From the NCBI RefSeq assembly GCF_003150675.1, contig NZ_QGGB01000006.1:248001-312000 (forward strand): a stretch of 64,000 nucleotides of DNA, given 5' to 3'. The stretch's first letter is position 1. Every line of letters begins with the position of its first letter. The notes beneath the pieces were generated by a model. That model was not told the origin of the DNA, ran no database searches, and worked only from the letters and a program-made list of their open reading frames with translations. Position numbers and translations under genes: made by a program. Positions 1,107 through 19,589 of this stretch are shown in pieces. The stretch is from Rhodohalobacter mucosus (GTDB lineage: Bacteria > Bacteroidota > Rhodothermia > Balneolales > Balneolaceae).

Positions 1107-3586
1107 AGCCCCAATGCCTCAAGTTCCCTGATCTGGCTTTCAAACCTTTCCGGGTTGTCGCGAAAGAAGGCGAGTGCATCGCGAAGGTGTGTTTCTGCTT
1201 CGTCTTGGCGGTCGAGGTCCCAAAGGCAGCGGCCCAGGGTATAGCGGGTGGTCATCAGCTCCGGATGATCACCGGGCAGCTGGTTGCTCCGCAAGGTGTA
1301 GGCGCGCTCAGCAAAGGGCATGGCTTCGTCACATCGCTGTTGGCCCCGAAGCGCTTCAGCGAGTCCCTTAAGCGGATAGGCCTGGCGTATGTGATCGGCC
1401 GGCAGCAGTCGCTCGCTGTGATCCAGCGCCTCTCTCATAATTTCTTCGGCCTGTGCATACTCCTCCATCCGCAGATAGACATTGCCGTAGCTCTGCAAAA
1501 TCCCGGCAATGTAAAAGTTCTCATTTCCGTACTCCTCCCGGAAAATGGTCAGTACATCGCGATAGGTCTCCGCACTCTCTTCCAGCCGCCCAGCTCCGCC
1601 GTAGGCGCGGGCCGTGTTTGAATGTGCAGCGATTGTATTGAGGTGGCCCGGTCCGAAGATCTCCAGGCGCATCTCATGGGCATCGATAGCGTAGGAGATG
1701 GCATCTTCGTAGCGGCCCATGTTCTGGTAGAGGCTGGAGATGTGGTTCAGCGTTGAAGCGATTTTTTCATGGATGCCAGGGTAGCGTGCGCGGCTCAGCT
1801 CCAGGGAGCGGAAAAGATACTCCTCTGCCAGTTCGTACTCACCCAGCCGCCGGTAGTTGGTACCCATATAGAATACAAAATCGTCATATGTCTGGCCCGC
1901 CTCTTCTGCGTTGTTTTCGTAGATGGGCTCCACCAGCCGCAGCACTGAATCGGCCCTGGCATAATCCTGGTTTACATCGAGGTGATAGGTGTAGTCCAGG
2001 TAGACGCTTGCAAACTCCAGGGAGCCGGGCTCCAGGTTTTCATTCGCCAGGCTCAGCGCCTGCTGCATCACGTCCATCGCCTCGTCGTACTTTCCGGCCT
2101 TGTCAAGGATGATGGAGCGGTCGGCGAGCATGTTGATGTAGGTGAAAGAAGTGGTATCCTGCTGCGACTCCTTCCAGAGGCCGACCGCGAGCGCGGATAT
2201 TGAATCTGCCTTCTCAAGCGCGATCAGGTTCGCATAGACATCGGCCATGAGGATCAGCAGTTCTGCTCGCGTACGTGGATCTTCCTTGAGTTCCGTGTTG
2301 ATGTACGCGCTGCTCATATCCACCATCCCGAGCGCGGTCAGCTCCTGTCCCTGGTTCTGCATCGGGTCGATCGAGAGAAGGGAACTTCCCAGCACAGATG
2401 CAATGCGTGTGGCTCTGTCAGCTTCACTTTGTGCCCGTTCAGTTTCACTTTTCAGCTCCATGGTGTAGATAAAAACGAGAATGATAATGCTGATTATCGA
2501 AAAAATACCGATAAAGGAGGCTGCGCGGTTCCTTTTGAGCCACTTGCCGGCACGGTAGAGGGGAGCTTTGGAGTAGACGGACACAGGGCGTTCGTTCAGC
2601 CAGGATCGTATCTCATCAGACATCTCCGAAGCACTCTCAAAACGCCTCTCCGGATCCTCTGTAAGCGCCATTCCGCAGATTGCTTCCAGTTCACGATCAA
2701 CAGGCGAGGGCAAGCACCCTTCGGAACGGAATTTCGGATCGGGATGACAACCGGACAGCAGCTGGTGAAGAATAACGCCCAGGCTGTAGATGTCGGAGGA
2801 GGTGGAAGTGGGCCTGCCGTCACGCTGTTCGGGGGAGGCATAGGCGCGGGTCATCGCCCTTCGTTCAGAGCCGGGATCATCTGGCCCCTCCAGTATTTGA
2901 GCGATACCGAAATCGAGCAGGCGAACCTGCGGGTCCGTATCCTCACCGGTTACCATGATGTTGGCCGGCTTAAGGTCGCGGTGCACAATCAGATTTTTAT
3001 GTGCATACTGAACCGCTTCGCAGACTTTCAGAAATAGTTTAAGCCGCTTCTTAACCGGCAGGCTGAGGCGGTCACACCAGGATATCAGATTTTCTCCCTG
3101 CACGTACTCCATGGCAAACCATGGGCGGCCCTCATCCGTAATGCCGCCGTCGATCAGCCTTGCAATATTGGGATGCTGCAGGCTGGCCAGAATGCTGCGC
3201 TCAGCTTCAAAGTGCTCTATGGCCCGCGGTGTACCCATACCGTATTTGGTCAGCTTCAGCGCAACGGTCTGCTCAAAGCCTCCCTGCACGCGGTGGGCCA
3301 GGTAGACGTTGCCCATGCCGCCCGTTCCGATCTTTTCAGCTACCCTGTATGGACCAACCTGAACGCCATCCATAGGCACCAGATCGGAGAGATCAACGCG
3401 TTCAATGGCAAAACCGTCGAGGAGAGAGGTTTCCTGTGAATCCGCCGAAAGGAGAGAGTAAAGTTCATCGTAGAGGAGAGGGTCTTCGGTTTTGACCGAT
3501 TCCAGCCGCAATGTGCGCTGATCCGGTTCCAGATCCACGATTTCCTTAAATAGCGTCTGGACTTTTTTCCACTGTTCAGCGTTCAT
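1103..3586 (-). CDS. Membrane-anchored Ser/Thr protein kinase with C-terminal TPR repeats
   Basis: 827 residues. An N-terminal helical segment (1-58) shared with the paralogue at 53402 precedes a complete Hanks-type kinase domain: glycine loop GTGGMG at 87-92, VALK lysine K111, HRDLKPAN at 202-209, DFG at 225-227, SPEQ near 251 and DIYSLG near 265. A single membrane helix follows at about 356-376. The remainder is a run of tetratricopeptide repeats with YxxA/LGxxYxxxGxxxEA patterns, up to about residue 820. This predicts a cytoplasmic kinase with a periplasmic protein-binding array. It lies 184 bp downstream of an ECF sigma factor gene on the same strand, so the two may be one transcription unit and the sigma factor a possible substrate. 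All catalytic residues are present. Only the ligand is unknown. Confidence 0.93.
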   Translation of the reverse strand: MNAEQWKKVQTLFKEIVDLEPDQRTLRLESVKTEDPLLYDELYSLLSADSQETSLLDGFAIERVDLSDLVPMDGVQVGPYRVAEKIGTGGMGNVYLAHRVQGGFEQTVALKLTKYGMGTPRAIEHFEAERSILASLQHPNIARLIDGGITDEGRPWFAMEYVQGENLISWCDRLSLPVKKRLKLFLKVCEAVQYAHKNLIVHRDLKPANIMVTGEDTDPQVRLLDFGIAQILEGPDDPGSERRAMTRAYASPEQRDGRPTSTSSDIYSLGVILHQLLSGCHPDPKFRSEGCLPSPVDRELEAICGMALTEDPERRFESASEMSDEIRSWLNERPVSVYSKAPLYRAGKWLKRNRAASFIGIFSIISIIILVFIYTMELKSETERAQSEADRATRIASVLGSSLLSIDPMQNQGQELTALGMVDMSSAYINTELKEDPRTRAELLILMADVYANLIALEKADSISALAVGLWKESQQDTTSFTYINMLADRSIILDKAGKYDEAMDVMQQALSLANENLEPGSLEFASVYLDYTYHLDVNQDYARADSVLRLVEPIYENNAEEAGQTYDDFVFYMGTNYRRLGEYELAEEYLFRSLELSRARYPGIHEKIASTLNHISSLYQNMGRYEDAISYAIDAHEMRLEIFGPGHLNTIAAHSNTARAYGGAGRLEESAETYRDVLTIFREEYGNENFYIAGILQSYGNVYLRMEEYAQAEEIMREALDHSERLLPADHIRQAYPLKGLAEALRGQQRCDEAMPFAERAYTLRSNQLPGDHPELMTTRYTLGRCLWDLDRQDEAETHLRDALAFFRDNPERFESQIRELEALGL

Positions 3587-3770
3587 GGACGTTTGTTTAT
3601 CAATTAAATTGCGACATTGTTTTCATAGCCACAGAGGCACTGAGTCATAAACTTTTCTCTGTCTATTCTTGTCTTGGAGAATAGAAAAAATCCTGCTCAT
3701 GCCAGATTTGAATCATACTCACTCGGTGGCTTATATCTTATCGCGCAGAAACCTTCACCATCCGGCGAAA

Positions 3771-14966: not shown

Positions 14967-15149
14967 TTAATCCGGCATGATCAGTGCGAGAATAAAGTAG
15001 AGGAGTACCATGGACCCGACGGAGGAGAAGACAAGAATTAGAAAAATAATCCGGATGATGGTAGAATCCCACCCCAGGTACTCTGCGATACCTCCGCAAA
15101 CACCTGCAACCATCTTGTCTGTATGTGATTTTCTGAGCTTAGCCGGCAT
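14967..15149 (-). CDS. PspC-domain membrane protein
   Basis: 60 residues from the ATG at 15149 (MPAKLRKSHTDKMVAGVCGGIAE). The sequence is essentially one PspC domain: basic N-terminus, KMVAGVCGGIAEYLGWDSTIIR (about 11-32) and one hydrophobic helix (33-58). PspC proteins are associated with envelope stress responses, but single-domain homologues are widespread and mostly uncharacterised. It lies on the same strand just upstream of the Gfo/Idh-like gene. It is compact and complete, so confidence in the gene is high. Confidence 0.9.
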   Translation of the reverse strand: MPAKLRKSHTDKMVAGVCGGIAEYLGWDSTIIRIIFLILVFSSVGSMVLLYFILALIMPD

Positions 15150-15352
15150 GTTGATGTCCTTTAGGAATAGTTTTTGTGAACGTTCAGGTATCAATACGGC
15201 AATATTGACGGTGTGTTTCAAAAATAATGAAAAAAAATTTCAAACCGTTTCAATCCATCATGTCGCGTTTCTACCAGAACTGCAAGTACAGCTATATTTG
15301 CACAGGAACTGACGAATCGTTCTGAAAGGATGTTAAGTCAGAAAAACGGCAT

Positions 15353-15413: not shown

Positions 15414-17447
15414 TTAAAAATTCAGATCAATCTTTTGTGCACGATATCCAACGAAACTGACGGTGGCATGTGTTGCTTCAGACGAAATATTTGATATGGT
15501 AAATTCTCCATCCACATTTGTCGCGGTTCCGCGATTTACTCCGTCAATAACGATATTGGCACCTGCCAGGGGTTGTCCCGTGGTTCCGTCCACCACGGTT
15601 CCGGTAATGGTGGATCCGTTATGATTCATCCTGACGGTCATATTTCTGCCAATAATTTCAGGTTCAATAGAAGAAGAAGTTGATCCGGAGCTCGGGTTGT
15701 AACCGCTTACGGTTATTTCACTTAGAGAATTCTGATCGTTTATGGGTGTCTGTTCCGGGGTGTTTTCACTTCCCTGCAGCTTAAAAAATATGGGCAGGGA
15801 GTACTGAACGCGCACCGGCCGGCCGCGCTGCATGCCGGGCTTAAACTTGGCCTCTCTTACCACGCGCAGAGCCTCTTCATCAGCACCGCCTCCGATGCCG
15901 CGGATCACCTGAGGATCTTCCACCTCACCCTGTTCATTGATTACAAACTGTACGTACACGCGTCCTTCAATGCCCGCTCTGCGAGCCATTTGAGGGTAGC
16001 GGATGTTTCTCTGAAGTGTTTCCAATCCACCTATTAGCTCCGGCATATCTTCCACCACAACGAAGAAATCCTCCTTAGGTCCGGATTCGCCATTTTGAAT
16101 GGTAAGTGAGCCGGGTGTAACCGGATTCATTCCCAGTGCTTTCAGCGTATTGTTGTATGATTCCGCATCCAGCTTGGTTTTAACCTGAATGACCCCTTTT
16201 TCACCGCGGGTTCCGAATTTTTCCACAGCCTCTTCTCCTTTCCATACATGGATAGACTCTATGTGCCTGGGTTCAAGCATTTGAAGCTGTTCGAGTTTGC
16301 TTTCATGCCGCTCGGCCTGCTCCTCCTCACTCATGTAAATAATTATTTCATGAAACCCCTTCTCTCCGGTCCGGTCCACGTTGGTCATGAGGTCGAGCTC
16401 TTCCTCGTCGAACACGCTCTGTGTCTGCATGTCGGTACAGGCCATTACGATGGCGGTCGACATGAAGATGGCGCCCAGAACAGCCATGCTTGTTCGTTTG
16501 GGAACCGGGTGATCGTTCTTGTACTGAGTAATCATTGTGATCCTCTTTTTTAGGTTGGATGATTCCTGAGCCATGTTTACGGAAAGATGCTTTTCAAGAT
16601 TAGGTGATGGAATCAGCTCCAGCAGTAGGGAAGCGTACTCCTTACGGGATACGGTTTTCTCGTTCAGGACCAGACGATCGCACCTCATTTCGCGATACTC
16701 AACCAGTTCGTGCTTGAGCCTGTGCACCAGCGGATGAAACCAGAACAACGCTTCGGTAAGCATCACCAGCAAATGTGTCGCAAAGTCTTGCTCGTGAATA
16801 TGCGTGAGCTCGTGCCGAATGGCCAGGTTCATCTTCCCGTGATTCTTTTTGAGTGATTCCGGAAGGAGTATTACCGGATGACGCTTGCCAAAGGTAACGG
16901 GTACAATCTGCTGATGGATAAAGCAAACCGATACCGGCCGCTGAATAGCCTTCAAAAGCCCATGATTAATACTGCTCAACCCATCTGTTTTTGAAAGGGG
17001 TGCAAGTGAGCACCGATTCCGGAGATGATTCAGGCGGAAAAAATTGATTAAAAACCGGCAAATTGTCACCAGAAGGCCGGAAGCAAGTACGAGCACTACG
17101 GCAAGATAGAGCCAGTAGGTGAGCGGCATCCCGGAATCCGATTCCGCAGGTGCGAGGCTGAATTCAATGGGGGCTGACACTGAAATAATTTTCAGCGCTG
17201 CCTGCGATGCCGACGGGGAGAGGTATGCCGACAGATACTCTACCGCAATTAATAACAGAAAACCTACCGGCAGGGAAAAAACAAGCGCCAGGCGGGTATG
17301 GTACTGATATTCAGGCTGTATCCTGTCGGTTGATTTCAGAATCAGCCAGACGGCGGACCCGATCGTTGTCCATATCAGGAGTGGCAGCCATGCGGCTTTC
17401 AGCAGATTTTCGCCTGCAAGTGCAAGGTCTAATGCGATGTTTTCCAT
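15414..17447 (-). CDS. M56 BlaR1-like sensor metallopeptidase with TonB C-terminal and carboxypeptidase-like domains
   Basis: 677 residues. An N-terminal membrane part has about four helices (residues 1-30, 50-75, 107-135, 310-330). The cytoplasmic zinc protease carries HELTHIHE (about 208-215) and a downstream EYREMRCDRLV with the third ligand. After the last helix the periplasmic part contains a TonB C-terminal domain (IRYPQMARRAGIEGRVYVQF ... VVREAKFKPG) and ends in a CarboxypepD_reg-like repeat (GTVVDGTTGQPLAGANI ... ATNVDGEFTI). In this family signal sensing activates proteolysis and relieves BlaI repression. It follows blaI by 4 bp. The sensor domains are not penicillin-binding, so the signal is probably not a beta-lactam. 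Confidence 0.92.
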   Translation of the reverse strand: MENIALDLALAGENLLKAAWLPLLIWTTIGSAVWLILKSTDRIQPEYQYHTRLALVFSLPVGFLLLIAVEYLSAYLSPSASQAALKIISVSAPIEFSLAPAESDSGMPLTYWLYLAVVLVLASGLLVTICRFLINFFRLNHLRNRCSLAPLSKTDGLSSINHGLLKAIQRPVSVCFIHQQIVPVTFGKRHPVILLPESLKKNHGKMNLAIRHELTHIHEQDFATHLLVMLTEALFWFHPLVHRLKHELVEYREMRCDRLVLNEKTVSRKEYASLLLELIPSPNLEKHLSVNMAQESSNLKKRITMITQYKNDHPVPKRTSMAVLGAIFMSTAIVMACTDMQTQSVFDEEELDLMTNVDRTGEKGFHEIIIYMSEEEQAERHESKLEQLQMLEPRHIESIHVWKGEEAVEKFGTRGEKGVIQVKTKLDAESYNNTLKALGMNPVTPGSLTIQNGESGPKEDFFVVVEDMPELIGGLETLQRNIRYPQMARRAGIEGRVYVQFVINEQGEVEDPQVIRGIGGGADEEALRVVREAKFKPGMQRGRPVRVQYSLPIFFKLQGSENTPEQTPINDQNSLSEITVSGYNPSSGSTSSSIEPEIIGRNMTVRMNHNGSTITGTVVDGTTGQPLAGANIVIDGVNRGTATNVDGEFTISNISSEATHATVSFVGYRAQKIDLNF

Positions 17448-17829: not shown

Positions 17830-17907
17830 AGATGTTTTGGCTTGTGAATGTTGAATTTGCGCCTCATCTGCAGGTTGAGGTACAAAGGTGTGGTATGAAT
17901 GACTTAG

Positions 17908-17923
17908 TACTAATAACTTAGTA
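17908..17923. promoter_or_regulatory. Candidate BlaI operator between blaI and the photolyase-like gene
   Basis: TACTAATAACTTAGTA is a perfect 6-4-6 inverted repeat. It overlaps a second perfect dyad, TTAGTACTAA (17904-17913). It is 79 nt from blaI and 83 nt from the divergent gene, so one site could control both promoters. BlaI/MecI operators are TAC...GTA dyads of this kind. Confidence 0.6.
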
Positions 17924-18005
17924 AATAAGATAAAAAGCAAGTCTCTTTAAAAAATATTCGGAACGCCATCCAGCGTGAAATGCTTGTGAGTAGTGATCTA
18001 AACCA

Positions 18006-19589
18006 ATGATTCTTTATCCAATGAGCAGAAACTATCTGAAGCACATCGACGGCAATATACCCAGGGCAGACCTGAACCTGAATGATCATTCTCGTGCTGT
18101 ATTTGTTCTGCACGATCAGCTGAATCTGAAAGTATGGCCTGAATGGGTGAGAGAGGAAAAGCCGCTTCTGGTGTTCATGGAGAGCAACGAGAAGGGCAAT
18201 GAAATACCTCATCATAAATTGAAGGCAGCGTACATTATCAGCAGTATGCGGCACTTCGCGCTTGAGTGTCATGATGAGGGGTTTCCGGTGCTATATCACT
18301 CTACGCAGGGGCATTTTGACGATGGACTTAATGAACTGCTGGAAGATTTTGAAGGAGAGCTGACCTTTATGACACCCTCTGAATGGGATACCCGGCAACG
18401 CCTGCGGAATGTTCGCGAATCTTACAGCGAAAGAGTTCAAGAAATCCCAAACGGGTTTTTTATTGCTGATGCGGATCAGTGGAAGGATAAGATTGAACCC
18501 GGGTACCGGATGGAGTACTTCTATCGCGACATGCGAAGAAAAACCGGTTATCTCATGAATGGTTCGGAGCCCGAGGGAGGGGAGTGGAATTATGATGATC
18601 AAAACCGGGAAAAGCTGCCTGATAAAGTTCAGGTTCCGGATATTGAAACCATTGAAGCGGATGATGTTACGAAAGAAGTAATAGAAATGGTTGAGCACTA
18701 CTTTCCCGATCATTTCGGTAATCTCGACAGGTTTCCATATGCCGTACAAAGAGATCAGGCTCTGGCCCTGCTGGAACAATTTATAAATGAGAGGCTTGAT
18801 GAGTTTGGCCCTTATGAAGACGCTCTGAAAGCGGGAAACCACACCCTGTTTCACTCACGTCTTTCACTCTATCTGAACAACGGCCTGCTGCTTCCCCGGG
18901 AAGTTTGTGAGGCGGCCATCGAGGCATATGATGCCGGAAATGCACGGCTCAATTCGGTGGAGGGATTCGTCCGGCAGATTATAGGCTGGAGAGAGTATAT
19001 CAGGATATACTATGAAGCGATGATGCCCGGGGTGCGCGATGCAAATCACTTTGACTTTGAGGAAAAACTGCCCGCTATGTATTGGTCAGGGGAGACAGAG
19101 ATGAAATGCATGGAGCAGTGCCTGAAGCCGGTGATTGACGAAGCCTGGTCGCACCACATTCCTCGCCTCATGGTGCTGAGCAACTTCAGCAACCTTACCG
19201 AAACGGATCCCCGTGAACTCAACCGGTGGTTTCATCTGGCCTACGCAGACGCCTATGAGTGGGTGGAACTGCCAAACGTACTCGGCATGAGCACCTTTGC
19301 AGACGGTGGTGTTCTGGCATCCAAACCGTATGTTTCAAGCGGTAATTACATCAATAAGATGAGCGATTACTGCAAAAAATGCCGGTACAGTGTCACAAAA
19401 AAGACGGGGGAAAACGCATGTCCCTTTAATTACCTCTACTGGAATTTTGTGGACAAACAGCGCGACACATTCAACGACAGCGGCCGCGTAAACTTTATGG
19501 TGAACATGTTCGACAACAAAAAGTCGGATGATGAAAAAAAAGCGATCCGGGAATCGAGCGAGAAGTTCCTGGAGGAGTTGAAGAGGTAG
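18006..19589 (+). CDS. Fe-S cluster (6-4) photolyase / cryptochrome (PhrB/CryB type)
   Basis: 527 residues. The N-terminal antenna domain begins with LNDHSRAVFVLHDQLN. The FAD domain includes VEGFVRQIIGWREYIRIYYE, MVLSNFSNLTETDPRELNRWF and LGMSTFADGGVLASKPYVSSGNYINK. Four cysteines match the [4Fe-4S] ligands of Agrobacterium PhrB, offset by a constant 18: C368, C456, C459 and C472 (YCKKCRYSVTKKTGENACPFN region). The family repairs (6-4) photoproducts. An in-frame ATG at 18021 (MSRNYLKHID) is an alternative start. It is divergent from blaI and shares the putative operator. Confidence 0.93.
   Translation: MILYPMSRNYLKHIDGNIPRADLNLNDHSRAVFVLHDQLNLKVWPEWVREEKPLLVFMESNEKGNEIPHHKLKAAYIISSMRHFALECHDEGFPVLYHSTQGHFDDGLNELLEDFEGELTFMTPSEWDTRQRLRNVRESYSERVQEIPNGFFIADADQWKDKIEPGYRMEYFYRDMRRKTGYLMNGSEPEGGEWNYDDQNREKLPDKVQVPDIETIEADDVTKEVIEMVEHYFPDHFGNLDRFPYAVQRDQALALLEQFINERLDEFGPYEDALKAGNHTLFHSRLSLYLNNGLLLPREVCEAAIEAYDAGNARLNSVEGFVRQIIGWREYIRIYYEAMMPGVRDANHFDFEEKLPAMYWSGETEMKCMEQCLKPVIDEAWSHHIPRLMVLSNFSNLTETDPRELNRWFHLAYADAYEWVELPNVLGMSTFADGGVLASKPYVSSGNYINKMSDYCKKCRYSVTKKTGENACPFNYLYWNFVDKQRDTFNDSGRVNFMVNMFDNKKSDDEKKAIRESSEKFLEELKR

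Follow-up and report, generated by a model that had tools for sequence, protein, structure and literature searches.

The window, a 64,000-nucleotide stretch of contig C6 of Rhodohalobacter mucosus, contains a blaI-type repressor gene and a photolyase gene that diverge from each other, with a perfect palindrome in the interval between them. This raises the question of which gene the palindrome belongs to. The sequence-only reading took it for one operator shared by both units, its position implying co-repression of DNA repair and of the sensor operon. The comparison presented here points to another arrangement, which we consider quite probable: an operator through which BlaI would repress its own blaI-blaR1 operon and, at further copies, a few unlinked lipoprotein genes, whereas the neighbouring photolyase would be driven by a GGAAC-type promoter of its own and would escape co-repression.

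Genes of the divergent locus

The repressor consists of a Penicillinase_R winged-helix domain over its full length (PF03965, 6.2e-32, residues 8-121) and has no cysteine. Its named relatives are Balneolaceae, including Aliifodinibius. The second protein of the operon matches the M56 family (4e-31), with HELTH at residue 212 and EMRCD at 253 corresponding to the HEXXH and EXXXD motifs of the BlaR1 metalloprotease (PMC9834060). No C-terminal penicillin-binding or transpeptidase domain was identified in it by Pfam; TonB_C and CarbopepD_reg_2 are found there instead, as the sequence-only reading had described. Hence, the signal would not be beta-lactam binding by the known domain. The NCBIfam blaR1 models cover the N-terminal M56 part only, below their cut-off. 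Downstream of blaR1, a short ORF (14975-15150, minus strand) looks PspC-domain-like by eye. The genome also encodes a second BlaI/M56 pair (contig C3; L044 2584-4370), without an exact TACTA-N6-TAGTA and with short tandem repeats upstream.

The divergent gene encodes an Fe-S photolyase, as had been proposed: it matches PhrB (4dja) with 5e-126 over residues 29-524, and the cysteines C368, C456, C459 and C472 are aligned to the cluster cysteines C350, C438, C441 and C454 of PhrB. The His-His pair is aligned as well. The start supported by the orthologues is the second ATG, at 18021, since the relatives align from M(S/P)R. A dCTP deaminase gene follows. The features of the locus are collected in Table 1.

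Table 1. Features of the blaI-photolyase region and of an unlinked gene carrying the same site (window coordinates unless stated).
Feature	Position	Strand	Basis
blaR1-like sensor protease, M56 + TonB_C + CarbopepD_reg_2	15414..17447	-	Pfam, protease motifs
blaI, BlaI/MecI/CopY-family repressor, 125 aa	17452..17829	-	PF03965 6e-32
Second, imperfect dyad TATGAATGACTTAGTA	17894..17909	.	14 bp from main dyad, 2 bp in common
BlaI-type operator, main dyad TACTAATAACTTAGTA (TACTA-N6-TAGTA)	17908..17923	.	Exact; 64/68 family loci at blaI
TTGCTT, -35-like box of putative blaI promoter	17935..17940	-	TTG(A/C) conserved, 54/64 at same offset
GGAAC box, putative -35-like element of photolyase promoter	17960..17964	+	GGAAC-N20-T in 42/50 upstreams
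FeS-BCP (PhrB/CryPro-type, (6-4)) photolyase	18006..19589	+	PhrB 4dja match; probably not a BlaI target
FGE/SUMF1-like lipoprotein gene with site	L164 2916-2931 (site), 2931-3701 (gene); own genome C2:457915-458697

The palindrome and its rarity

The palindrome is real: TACTAATAACTTAGTA (TACTAA-N4-TTAGTA) is present in exact form on the plus strand. The range 17904-17923 quoted before is this dyad plus TTAG on its left, and the 10-mer TTAGTACTAA is thus a perfect palindrome, too. The latter occurs once in the 3.9-Mb genome, vs. 13 times for its mirror control, an apparent avoidance. The main dyad lies 78 nt from the blaI start and 82 nt from the first photolyase ATG (97 nt from the second), so that the distances of 79 and 83 nt given earlier were essentially right.

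With up to two mismatches allowed, the dyad pattern was found twice in the window against 1.2 expected; rarity within the window alone is therefore no proof. A pattern search of the whole genome for the exact TACTA-N6-TAGTA returned three copies. These three copies, together with the conservation at blaI across the family described below, show that the palindrome is not there by chance, and a chance origin was rejected on the genome-wide rarity of the exact form and on that conservation.

The site accompanies blaI and its putative promoter

BlaI orthologues were gathered from 92 Balneolaceae genomes. Of the 69 loci fetched, 68 had sufficient upstream sequence; the orthologue counts rest on tblastn starts, and many of the genomes are metagenome assemblies. 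The exact TACTA-N6-TAGTA precedes blaI in 64 of these 68 loci and in 17 of 20 loci fetched from outside the family, namely from other families that belong to its class and phylum. A recognisable photolyase stands beside blaI in only one of the latter 20. In two genomes (L068 and L073), the operon begins with an extra small gene, and it is this gene that the site precedes. The earlier naming of the palindrome as a BlaI-type operator is supported.

When the upstream regions were aligned on the operator, a TTG(A/C) on the blaI strand appeared upstream of it at a constant offset of 12-13 bp in 54 of the 64. Many species have TTGAC(A/T)-N16/17-TATATT on this strand, with the -10 inside TACTATTATATTAGTA. 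The corresponding TTGCTT of the window is a weak consensus match, and a single-sequence promoter scan found no blaI promoter in the window; a -10 at a spacing of 16-19 bp from TTGCTT would fall within the main dyad. As the site overlaps the putative blaI -10, a repressor sitting there would block the blaI promoter, and the palindrome is read as the autorepression operator of blaI-blaR1. The second dyad adds to this layout: columns +16..+29 of the operator-anchored alignment are conserved, and a tandem arrangement of two dyads 14 bp apart is frequent in the relatives.

The binding of another regulator, different from the BlaI of the window, is very unlikely in our view. In its favour, the site differs in sequence from the Gram-positive TACANNTGTA core (PMC7253601), and two genomes in which no blaI orthologue was detected (G067 and G034) nevertheless keep it at the FGE-like gene discussed below, although both cases may be assembly gaps. 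Against such a regulator stands the near-constant company of site and blaI orthologue across the class; moreover, BlaI proteins of other organisms control their own expression and recognise inverted repeats of a related kind, which also come in pairs (PMC8457756).

Rearranged neighbourhoods separate the site from the photolyase

In the mec/bla divergons, one operator is common to both units (PMC5341023). By analogy with these staphylococcal systems, a single operator at 17894-17923 could co-repress both divergent units, blocking the photolyase promoter as well. The adjacent divergent layout is in favour of this, as is the linkage of blaI and photolyase in 38 of the 41 genomes that have both (our count), which exceeds what one would expect of genes that are neighbours by chance.

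The rearranged loci, however, show that the site tracks blaI and not the photolyase. In many linked loci, the two are separated by a TIGR00725/SLOG cluster 4-type gene (Pfam LDcluster4, 4e-52), which has the same orientation as blaI. There are 13 loci with this gene intervening and the photolyase present; in all of them the site remains next to blaI, and none has an exact copy between the intervening gene and the photolyase. No exact site precedes the photolyases detached from blaI within 400 bp of their starts; in three of these cases (G050, G060 and G063), the genome still has a blaI. In one genome, a class II-like photolyase occupies the position beside blaI (L049 325-1812).

The photolyase upstream region has its own conserved box

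In 42 of 50 photolyase orthologues, a GGAAC stands 32-100 nt ahead of the start, compared to a Markov expectation of 9%. It is followed by an invariant T at +25 (position 17985 in the window), and the complete GGAAC-N20-T is present in 42 of the 50 upstream regions, against a chance rate of 2%. The box is found with photolyases adjacent to blaI (18/21), with those separated from it or otherwise placed (16/17) and with detached ones (8/12). It is absent from three genomes of the same genus with an adjacent photolyase (L026, L027 and L036), where the photolyase promoter could differ. Most likely, the photolyase has a separate promoter of its own; GGAAC would be its -35-like box, which an alternative sigma factor perhaps recognises. 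A classical ECF -10 (CGTC) was sought after GGAAC and was not found, only the invariant T at +25. In a few upstream regions of photolyases (L041 and L046), GGAAC...GTTCC could be taken for a LexA-like site, an idea that was rejected, as its spacing is not constant. In the same neighbourhoods, 15 of 24 class II photolyases carry GGAAT-N17-GGTTT (chance 0.06%), and this element may be recognised by the same sigma factor.

In the window, the dyad lies within the putative blaI promoter and 36 bp upstream of the GGAAC box. Among the genomes with adjacent genes, this distance ranges between 32 and 84 bp, unlike the fixed spacing on the blaI side, and the box is kept where blaI is absent from the neighbourhood. 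The arrangement is thus not that of a shared operator of the mec/bla type. Given the loci with an inserted gene, the detached photolyases and the separate box, co-repression of the photolyase was rejected as a general function, and we consider it improbable here; the implication drawn earlier from the position of the site is not supported. The photolyase is probably a conserved neighbour which does not share the operator.

An indirect coupling between the two promoters can also be envisaged, in which polymerases on the derepressed blaI promoter and on the photolyase promoter compete, so that BlaI binding would help the photolyase. The two putative -35 boxes stand back to back, 19 bp apart, and the linkage is kept in most genomes. 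This coupling is nonetheless unlikely: since the gap between the boxes is variable, and many genomes even have an entire gene in between, it cannot be the general function. A weak or indirect effect of BlaI on the photolyase may still exist in this genome, given the short distance between its two boxes.

Unlinked sites precede lipoprotein genes

A search of the genome for further copies, proposed with the sequence-only reading, yielded two more exact sites, both 5' of lipoprotein genes. The first (C2:457915-457930) ends at the start codon of an FGE/SUMF1-like lipoprotein gene, whose product is distantly similar to GldK/PorK. Among orthologues of this gene, the exact site is present at the start in 24 of 30 genomes; as a control, none of 24 class II photolyases has it. 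The other (C9:208100-208115; L010 about 1501-1540) immediately precedes a lipoprotein gene that follows mutS. Other sites in the relatives precede genes for secreted proteins or lipoproteins, among them serine hydrolases of the beta-lactamase family. Two relatives (L054 and L180) have BlaI-type sites beside such hydrolase genes (PF00144-like).

With its sites at lipoprotein genes, the regulon looks like a set of envelope proteins. Of the inducing signals suggested before (redox, light damage or envelope stress), the first two lose their basis, as they rested on the photolyase being a target, which is not supported. Envelope stress stays the likelier signal, judging from the candidate lipoprotein targets. 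In the literature, no paper was found on a link between BlaI and photolyases or on photolyases in Balneolaceae, and nothing specific on BlaI with formylglycine or on BlaR1 with TonB and M56.

Proposed mode of action

BlaR1 is an M56 protease that, when activated from outside, cleaves BlaI (PMC9834060). In the present system, a BlaI dimer would cover the -10 region of the blaI promoter and repress blaI-blaR1; probably, two dimers would sit on the tandem dyads 14 bp apart. A signal at the periplasmic TonB/carboxypeptidase-regulatory-like part would lead the M56 protease to cleave BlaI, which would open the operon together with the unlinked candidate targets, the FGE/SUMF1-like lipoprotein gene and the second lipoprotein gene.

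A wider reading is offered as tentative only: a class-wide BlaI-BlaR1 system without beta-lactam recognition may exist, in which the TonB-like/carboxypeptidase-regulatory-like part in the periplasm signals the state of the outer membrane or envelope and derepresses a small lipoprotein regulon, including the FGE-fold lipoprotein distantly related to GldK/PorK, the ring lipoprotein of type IX secretion.

For a BlaI-BlaR1 system which occurs widely in Rhodothermia and would be unable to sense beta-lactams by the known route, the analysis provides the operator sequence, a putative promoter layout and a first candidate target in trans. With these, the signal of the system becomes testable. Moreover, the comparison of rearranged neighbourhoods tells a shared site from the site of a neighbour, and it uncovered a separate, conserved promoter element of the photolyase.

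Comparison with known systems

The photolyase itself shows nothing unusual when compared with FeS-BCP/CryPro (6-4) photolyases; its closest solved relative is PhrB of Agrobacterium, over nearly the whole length.

As in the staphylococcal bla/mec divergons, a BlaI-family repressor and an M56 BlaR1-type protease form one operon here, and an inverted-repeat operator overlaps the (here putative) promoter. Unlike in these divergons, the half-sites are TACTA/TAGTA at N6, the sensor has TonB_C and CarbopepD_reg in place of the penicillin-binding domain, and the divergent gene would not be a shared target, the candidate targets being lipoproteins. The CopY/CopR copper repressors belong to the same protein family and use 16-base dyad operators that are often paired, but with the core KACANNTGTM and metal-sensing CXC motifs (PMC7253601), whereas the BlaI of the window is free of cysteine and is paired with an M56 protein.

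Small regulons, control of their own operon and inverted repeats placed in pairs ahead of it, all as proposed here, characterise BlaI_0696 and BlaI_1845 of Clostridium thermocellum (PMC8457756). They differ in their half-sites, GTCTAT/GACTAT, and in their targets, and their sites were defined by DAP-seq, those described here by comparison. As that species already offers an example of a BlaI acting on its own operon through paired dyads, the mode of action proposed for this locus is an ordinary one; the operator, the make-up of the sensor and the candidate targets are its variant parts.
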